Source of the DNA: Deltaproteobacteria bacterium
GTDB lineage: Bacteria; Desulfobacterota; DSM-4660; Desulfatiglandales; HGW-15
Assembly: GCA_016931115.1 (NCBI GenBank)
Contig: JAFGFM010000153.1
Span: 1-39,380 of the forward strand
Direction of reading: 5' to 3'
Length of the DNA: 39,380 nucleotides
The notes under the pieces are model-generated. The model saw only the letters and a program-made list of their open reading frames with translations, made no database searches and was not told where the DNA came from. Each line of letters opens with the position of its first letter. Positions within the stretch are counted from its first letter, which is position 1. Below are positions 28,541 through 30,731 of this stretch, in pieces. Made by a program: the position numbers and the translations under genes.

Positions 28541-28802
28541 CCATCCAGAACTTGTTCCTTTCTGGATGGTATATCATCTCCAATATATAAAACAATATTC
28601 TTGTTCATCAGTTTATATTTTTTTTAAAAGGCTGAGTTTTATACCCTACGTTGTTGGTTAATTGAATATTTTTACCAAATCCATATTTTCAACACATTCG
28701 TCATTCCACGGCTTGACCGTGGAATCCAGCGCTTTTTTAATTAAAAGCAATAGTGCAGGTGGCCATAAACCTCAAATACCGGGAGGACACACAGGTCCTC
28801 CC
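28541..28802. repeat. Gene-free stretch with three unrelated hairpin repeats
   Basis: The region 28461-28980 has no convincing gene. It holds CCATCCAGA/TCTGGATGG (28541-28569), ATTCCACGG-CTTGA-CCGTGGAAT (28703-28725) and GGGAGGAC/GTCCTCCC followed by CCTAC (28781-28802). The last resembles the GTAGGGG family end. A GCGAAGGCGGATGAGCC scrap near 28860 recurs loosely at 32474. The area looks like a landing zone for short repeats. Confidence 0.6.
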
Positions 28803-29009: not shown

Positions 29010-29069
29010 CTCCAGATTAAAAGGGTTTTATTATCAACAAATTAGCAACCTTAAAAAAGGAGATGCAAA

Positions 29070-30731
29070 TTGACCAGAAAGATATTGCCCGTTCTTATTT
29101 TTATTCTCATTGTTGTCTGTTTTGCAGCATATTCATCAGAAAAATTAACCGTTCTCAACCCGACTCCGCCAAATGCGATGGTCGACCGGATACCGCTCAT
29201 ACCAAGGCTTGATACCCTGTATGATAAAACCATATTCCTTGTGGATATCGGCTGGGGTGGCCCAGGGGCAGCCCCGAGCATCTATAAGGAGATGAAAGCA
29301 TGGTTTAAGCAGAACATGCCCAGTGTCAAGATAGAAATCAGAAGTGTCAAAGGATCTTACATGCAGGATCAGCCTGAGCTGTGGAAGGAGATAAAAGAAA
29401 AGGGTGATGCTGCCCTGATCGGGATAGCAGGCTGAGACAGCTGCACATCGGCCGTGAGCCGAAACTGCAAGGTAATGGAACAGGAATATGGCATCCCCAC
29501 TGTAGGAGGGGCAGCAGCAAATATTATTAATTATGCACTTAATCATGATTTCAAATATATGAATGGTTCGCCAATAAGGTATATCTCATTTCCATTCCCA
29601 GTTGCCGGGCAGCCACAGTCAGTACACCATAAATATGTCTTTGAGGCTAATGATGTTGTGAGCGGTAAACCCATGATGAAGGCATTCATAGATGCCCTTA
29701 CAGTGCCACTCACAGAAAAAGAAAAATATAAGGGTCCTGCGCCAGCAGCAGATGTAGCAGCAGAACCTGTTGAGCCACCAACTTTAGGGCCTGACACAGA
29801 AGAAAACCTTCAGAGGCTTTTCAAGGATAAGGACTGGACAGATTATCTACCTATCATTCTGCCAACAGAAGAACGTGTAGCAGAAATGCTGAAAGGGACA
29901 TCACATAAACGTGATGAGGTCATAAAAACCCTTGACTGGCCGGGAGGAAAGCGTGAGGTTACAGTCGAAAGGGTTGCTGTATGTGCGGTTATGTCCGGGG
30001 CAAAACCTGAGTATCTTCCGGTTATCCTTGCCCTTGCGAACCATGTGCCATTTGGAAACTCTACCTCTTCTATGGCTAACATGATACTGGTTAATGGCCC
30101 TATAAGGGACGAAATAGGCATGAACTACAAAACAAATGTAATGGGACCGCATAATGAGGCCAATGCGGTTATTGGCCGCACCTACACAATCATGTCCAAG
30201 ACCATAGGCGGACTGCACAGCGGGAAGACCACATGGAGCACCCTTGGAAGCACTATGCAGTATAATAATGTCTGCATAGCTGAAAATGAGGAGGCCATGC
30301 CCAAGGGTTGGCAGCCATTTCATGTACAGATGGGTTTTAAACCCAATCAAAGTGTTTTATCTGTCGGAACAGGCTGGTCATATATCTCAAGCGTAATAAT
30401 GGCAGTTGAGGAACACCCTGTCCATATGATAATGGGCGATTACATGAAGTCACTTATAATGGGTTCGGCCACAGTCATTATGGACCCGACTGTTGCTGAT
30501 CTCCTTAAAAAGAGTTACGGCTTCAATACAAAGGATGAGTTAAGTAAATGGTTTGCCGAAAATGTAGAAAAAGAGCAATATCCATCTGGTGAAAAGACAA
30601 AGCCCTTCCAGCCACAGTCAGTTAAAATTATTGTTACCGGAGGCGGCATCCAGACCACATGGTTTGTAACAGACTTTATGCTTGGGGCTAGTATGATGGG
30701 TGGCAGTACGTTAATAGATGATTGGAGGTAG
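29070..30731 (+). CDS. Exported UGSC-family selenoprotein, read through an in-frame TGA
   Basis: Two open frames in the same phase are joined by one TGA (29433-29435) at codon 122, giving 553 residues if read as selenocysteine. Around it: ALIGIAG-U-DSCTSAVSRNC, matching UGSC-family proteins, where Sec or Cys is followed by GSC; here the motif is U-D-S-C with Cys125. A stem-loop fit for SECIS follows. Start is TTG at 29070 with AAGGAG seven bases ahead. Residues 5-22 are hydrophobic and look like a signal peptide, so the redox site may be periplasmic. After a proline/alanine-rich linker, a second domain (about 190-540; AVCAVMSGAKPEYLPVILAL, GPHNEANAVIGR) has no function known to me. Redox partner unknown. 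A simple nonsense mutation is less likely given motif and hairpin. Confidence 0.85.
29436..29469 (+). promoter_or_regulatory. Predicted bacterial SECIS element
   Basis: Directly after the TGA, TGCA (29442-29445) pairs with TGCA (29466-29469) and TCGGC (29448-29452) pairs with GCCGA (29458-29462); the apical loop is CGTGA with G in second place. The loop begins 17 bases after the TGA, inside the 16-37 range described for bacterial SECIS elements. Confidence 0.7.

Follow-up and report, generated by a model that had tools for sequence, protein, structure and literature searches.

Does the TGA codon that lies between two open reading frames of the same phase in this contig end a gene, or does it encode selenocysteine (Sec), and in the latter case, what might the protein do? 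The window that we analyzed (the whole stretch of DNA, 39,380 nucleotides) contains open reading frames at 29070-29435 and 29454-30731 with this single TGA between them. Read through, they give a translation of 553 amino acids with the sequence GIAG-U-DSCTS at residue 122. The second open reading frame starts with GTG, without a ribosome-binding site, and its start lies within a putative SECIS hairpin. The features of the locus are collected in Table 1. Upstream of the gene, a palindromic intergenic element (GTCATTCCACGGCTTGACCGTGGAATCCAG) was noticed at 28690-28740 of the window; palindromic elements of this type are often dispersed in proteobacterial genomes.

Table 1. Features of the selenoprotein locus in the window
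Feature	Position	Strand	Evidence
AAGGAG ribosome-binding site, 7 nt 5' of the TTG start (29070)	29057..29062	+	direct sequence reading
Complete selenoprotein gene, 553 codons and TAG stop	29070..30731	+	frame; homologues across the TGA; dN/dS 0.04-0.13 on either side of the TGA versus the G001 orthologue
Signal peptide (TRKILPVLIFILIVVCFAAYSSE), export inferred	29070..29141	+	sequence; signal-like N-termini in relatives
UGSC domain, residues 27-187, Rossmann-like by prediction	29148..29630	+	Pfam PF24696, E 3.4e-10; model pLDDT 77; hhalign probability 96, E 5e-9 to GrdB/PrdB
Sec codon TGA, residue 122; U-D-S-C motif with Cys125	29433..29435	+	translation; TGA conservation in homologues
SECIS-like hairpin; inner stem 29448-29462; apical loop CGUGA 29453-29457	29442..29469	+	folding; family-level excess
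C-terminal domain, residues 238-553, unnamed family; near-invariant D258, T266, N365, R370, E405	29781..30728	+	no Pfam/NCBIfam match; model pLDDT 80; conservation over 86 proteins

Evidence for selenocysteine at the TGA codon

The window gene is very likely a real selenoprotein gene, intact and read through the TGA, with the presence of Sec in the protein itself being inferred. The genome (5.18 Mb, 98.5% complete) contains selA (628 bits), selB (367 bits) and selD (364 bits), the last of which also has an in-frame TGA, as well as a tRNA-Sec (anticodon UCA). Homologues found by tblastn in other metagenome-assembled genomes align over their full length, through the TGA, with 55-79% identity, and all have TGA at this column. 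The orthologous codon is TGA in 9/9 loci from GTDB genomes, and in a further orthologue of the same genus with 92% identity. Relative to the orthologue in genome G001, dN/dS (Nei-Gojobori) was 0.075 before the TGA, 0.127 after it within the N-terminal domain, and 0.041 in the C-terminal domain. As dN/dS is low downstream of the TGA, all sequence 3' of this codon is constrained as protein.

Hairpin evidence is available only at the level of the family. The hairpin of the window gene itself was no better than shuffled sequences (z = -0.08). The decisive result came from a positional synonymous-recoding test, which asked for at least 4 stacked pairs, a loop of 3-8 nt that starts between +14 and +20, and a G at loop position 1 or 2: 41 of the 66 family sites had such a hairpin after the UGA, versus 9.9 expected. 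The 66 sites are related sequences, so the P value of this test is not exact. An energy-only synonymous test gave a moderate shift (mean z -1.24), and codon-order shuffling and single-gene hairpin energies were weak or not significant. Loop sequences differ by subfamily (CGUGA, GGUC, AGUU, GUA or GUG). The U-GSCTK subfamily (L075, L076, L089, L095, L100) keeps the TGA without a detectable hairpin in the following 45 nt. A search with Rfam SECIS_1 found no match, but none in any control either, and is thus uninformative.

An earlier note, made from the sequence alone, had described two same-phase frames split by a single TGA, which held on frame reading and read-through translation. Its interpretation as a selenoprotein that standard gene calls break in two is supported by Sec machinery, TGA conservation and selection; of the genes that it proposed to look for (selA, selB, selC and selD), selA, selB, selD and the tRNA-Sec are all present. 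The SECIS-like hairpin that it noticed exists, but is no evidence when taken alone.

Family size and conservation of the Sec column

The family has 16 genes in the genome of the window, 14 with and 2 without Sec, when contigs C49 and C2 are counted as two ends of one gene. Matches are similarly numerous (13-16 each) in genomes of the same taxonomic family (G001, G003, G006), and about 19 loci with TGA were found in G232. A metagenome-assembled genome labelled Gammaproteobacteria (G233) has TGA at every one of its 16 loci; nine of these are on a single 1.78-Mb contig, and the copy number is therefore no binning artefact. In a survey that covered over 5,200 bacterial genomes, UGSC-containing proteins are listed with the numbers 26 and 33, which we take to be 26 organisms and 33 genes (PMC5029168). 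The largest reported bacterial selenoproteomes have 57-63 genes in all (PMC13188914), and genomes with 14-19 Sec genes from one family would alter such counts. Standard gene calling splits each of these family genes. For nearly every paralogue, the closest relative is a gene in another genome and not another paralogue, which argues that the paralogues are old and have been kept apart.

Among 86 full-length members, the Sec column is occupied by Sec in 75, by Ser in 7, and by Leu, Ala, Asn and Thr in one each. The earlier note had proposed to look for Sec or Cys at this position; Sec is kept in most members, but Cys was found in none of the 86. Cys125 accompanies Sec in 74 of the 75 Sec-containing members. 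From the strict pattern of Sec but never Cys, together with the many diverged copies, we infer that general disulfide exchange is less likely than a demanding nucleophilic reaction with varied substrates.

The eleven full-length members without Sec (among them L077, L079, L099, L147, L150, L158, L159 and L160) have retained the C-terminal domain, and one of them, L079, has a Tat-type signal.

The N-terminal domain and its relation to GrdB and PrdB

The window protein reached 40.8 bits with the Pfam UGSC model (cut-off 25), and 32.3 bits with the NCBIfam UGSC equivalog NF041046, below the cut-off of 125, which unfused relatives pass with 133-144 bits. Since only the Pfam cut-off was met, we regard the window protein as a divergent UGSC member. 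The match to the UGSC family with Asp in place of Gly, as given in the earlier note, thus held in part.

An AlphaFold model of the N-terminal domain, based on 14 sequences, predicts a Rossmann-like sandwich and not a thioredoxin fold, with Sec122 at the N-terminus of the helix that follows the third strand. The best PDB matches of this domain, lumazine synthase and others (Z 8-9), share the common sandwich only, and are not thioredoxins.

Family relatives have weak NCBIfam matches (E about 0.01) at the Sec site to PrdB and to selenoprotein B of the glycine, betaine, sarcosine and proline reductases. We compared the family profile by hhalign with GrdB and PrdB-like genes taken from the same phylum, and obtained a probability of 95.9 (E 5e-9), with Sec aligned on Sec. 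The probability was 92.7 for GrdB alone and 94.2 for the PrdB-like proteins alone, versus at most 3.6 for column-shuffled controls and 0.8 for the reversed profile. The profile comparison shows that the N-terminal domain is homologous to GrdB/PrdB around the Sec site, over only about 70 residues. PF07355, the model of the GrdB/PrdB family, had no match in the window protein or its genome, and a sequence search found no solved GrdB structure. The accessible literature, supplements excluded, does not mention the relation to GrdB.

The C-terminal domain and its fusion

A conserved C-terminal domain of about 350 residues without known function, the remaining claim of the earlier note, was confirmed in part, as the domain comprises about 316 residues and is unnamed. 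In the 86 proteins, including those without Sec, D258, P265, T266, A303, M308, G310, G343, N365, G369, R370 and E405 are near-invariant. The structural model had no convincing match in the PDB. Class I fumarase (Foldseek E 3e-5) was not accepted as a homologue, with a TM score of 0.24, an rmsd of 16 and a VIA-align Z of 6 over no more than 87 residues.

Six relatives (L017, L018, L019, L021, L022, L024) encode the C-terminal domain in a gene of its own, immediately 5' of a stand-alone gene for a true UGSC selenoprotein, an order that is reversed relative to the fusion. The adjacent separate genes suggest two cooperating proteins, which are fused in the window gene.

A paralogue with four in-frame TGA codons

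The paralogous gene on contig C155 of the window's genome (L078/L181; L078:381-2186) has four in-frame TGA codons. Two of them are adjacent in the active site (GG-UU-GC), and the other two belong to the C-terminal domain (GGH-U-V-U-APFSW). The four codons are kept in five genomes (G000, G001, G006, G231, G232) with 70-99% identity to the query, and the C-terminal pair reads U-V-U or U-G-U across homologues, also including L178, L179, L180 and L182. The four-Sec proteins end soon after the C-terminal pair, at TAG, TAA or TGA. A strong hairpin comes after the active-site pair, behind its second TGA (CGATGG-GTT-CCATCG, 5/5), and another one follows the C-terminal site (GGCTCG-GT(T/G)-CGAGCC, 4/4 examined). 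A catalogue of prokaryotic selenoproteins lists 1-3 Sec per protein and no UU motif (PMC13188914). A conserved Sec-Sec encoded by UGA-UGA raises the question of how two adjacent UGAs can be decoded with SelB and a single hairpin.

Export and gene neighbourhood

A simple heuristic found a signal-, lipoprotein- or Tat-like N-terminus in 61 of the 86 members, and export of the window protein is inferred from its signal peptide. The neighbours of the window gene (DUF533, AIM24 and Rho-like genes) give no hint of a substrate. No conserved operon was found for the window gene, and none is shared by all paralogues examined. The neighbours of the paralogues vary, and include a glycyl radical enzyme, a radical SAM activase, aldehyde:ferredoxin oxidoreductases, a carboxylesterase, ABC transporters, a cupin-like protein and a secreted CDREC-type protein; rhodanese-like genes adjoin some family members. 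GrdE/PrdA and GrdA partners were absent among the scanned neighbours of the window gene and recurrent neighbours of the paralogues, with the rest of the genome outside the scan.

Some of the neighbouring proteins can be described further. The secreted family with a CDREC motif (about 300 amino acids, often with a G-x-SGW-like end) adjoins L066, L076, L085, L086, L090, L093 and L002, and has no Pfam match. A recurrent cupin-like protein (H-x-H ... IPxGxxHCP), at times internally duplicated, is found beside L002, L076, L078, L085, L095 and L097. Glycyl radical enzymes adjoin members at L076:2753-5152 (-), L157:3864-6329 (-) and L099:5069-6856 (-); all are under every NCBIfam equivalog cut-off, and the one at L099 has a radical SAM protein beside it.

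Proposed function and alternative explanations

We propose, with about as much to be said against as in favour, that the family acts outside the cytoplasm, where it would cleave bonds in varied substrates by a Sec-dependent, reductive chemistry like that of GrdB. This function is inferred, and the literature that we consulted contains no biochemistry on UGSC proteins. The C-terminal domain would hold a small substrate. The selenolate of Sec, at the N-terminal end of the helix that follows strand 3, would attack this substrate as the nucleophile and reductively cleave a C-N, C-O, C-S or C-halogen bond. Cys125 would resolve the selenium adduct to a selenenylsulfide, which an extracytoplasmic dithiol would then reduce. 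Different paralogues may have different substrates. In GrdB and PrdB, Sec breaks a C-N bond, and the proposed selenium-carbon adduct is resolved to a selenenylsulfide (reviewed in PMC10298544); the cleavage of fluoroacetate, by defluorination, has also been linked to GrdB-like proteins (PMC10838667). We favour nucleophilic chemistry over disulfide exchange because no Cys form exists among the 86 members, and those with Ser, Ala, Leu, Asn or Thr instead of Sec keep the C-terminal domain. Diversification onto varied substrates is suggested because the paralogues are closest across genomes and their neighbours vary.

Several points speak against a GrdB-like mechanism: the short match, the lack of GrdA, GrdE and PrdA among the scanned neighbours, the lack of a PF07355 match, and the C-terminal domain without a structural match. 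Moreover, GrdB is cytoplasmic whereas the window protein is predicted to be exported, its reductant is unidentified, and the neighbours of its gene offer no substrate clue.

The main competing function, which we consider unlikely, is that of a thiol-disulfide oxidoreductase, in which UxxC would act as the CxxC of thioredoxin- or DsbA-like proteins and form or repair periplasmic disulfides. The motif, the export, the thioredoxin-like fold assumed in the 2008 GOS paper (PMC2398784) and the rhodanese-like genes near some members all fit this explanation. Against it stand the predicted Rossmann-like sandwich (a prediction only), the absence of Cys homologues, and GrdB/PrdB as the best remote homology; at least 14 diverged paralogues with a large second domain would also be unusual for a general disulfide catalyst. 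Still less probable is a role in selenium or metal handling, with selenols that bind metals or carry selenium without catalysis. It could account for the paralogue with four Sec, including Sec-Sec and Sec-x-Sec, and several known multi-Sec proteins have been described as metal-binding (PMC13188914), but most paralogues, like the window protein, carry just one Sec, placed in a conserved UxxC site, and no conserved transport or metal operon adjoins the members. That the TGA is an ordinary stop, between two genes or from a nonsense mutation in a pseudogene, can practically be ruled out. Standard gene calling does produce two open reading frames, and the single hairpin of the window gene is not significant, but this codon is TGA in dozens of homologues with 31-92% identity and never TAA or TAG, purifying selection is evident on both sides, and the Sec machinery of the genome is complete.

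GrdB-like bond cleavage remains our preferred explanation, and it can be extended to a bolder one, which we offer tentatively and think clearly more apt to fail than to hold. The family would then form a class of Sec-dependent enzymes, so far unrecognised, that are exported and cleave bonds reductively, with at least 14 selenoprotein paralogues per genome; one of its branches would be a four-Sec enzyme with adjacent Sec-Sec, beyond the catalogued 1-3. The hosts would be bacteria that are uncultured and carry the labels Deltaproteobacteria, Acidobacteria and Gammaproteobacteria; by analogy, the family may have expanded in them like reductive dehalogenases in dehalorespirers.

Comparison with known systems

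The fusion architecture as such is already known. A UGSC/'Unknown_1' fusion selenoprotein was reported in 2008 by Zhang and Gladyshev (PMC2398784), with the same UGSC domain carrying Sec in UxxC and a conserved unknown domain. It is very likely the architecture of the window gene, with the identity of Unknown_1 inferred without an alignment comparison. The window gene differs by its U-D-S-C motif, the export, the 14 Sec paralogues in the genome and the lack of Cys forms among the members found; the fold is predicted here to be Rossmann-like, whereas a thioredoxin fold was assumed there. As far as the accessible literature shows (supplements excluded), the link to GrdB, the family size, the absence of Cys forms and the four-UGA paralogue in five genomes appear to be new.

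In aquatic metagenomes, UGSC proteins rank with the most common selenoproteins (PMC2398784), but they have no known function. With the UGSC family (PF24696; NF041046), the window protein shares the domain at residues 27-187, above the Pfam cut-off, and it departs from the family in that Sec is followed by Asp instead of Gly, and in having a second domain as well as a signal peptide. GrdB of glycine, sarcosine and betaine reductase differs in being cytoplasmic, with GrdA and GrdE as partners and without a fused C-terminal domain. In both GrdB and PrdB of D-proline reductase, however, the Sec site is placed as in the window protein (strand, U-x-x-C, helix, GIPT strand, and an (H/F)P-type turn). 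This link to the glycine and D-proline reductases provides a testable chemistry for UGSC proteins, and the pattern of Sec but never Cys indicates what to test.
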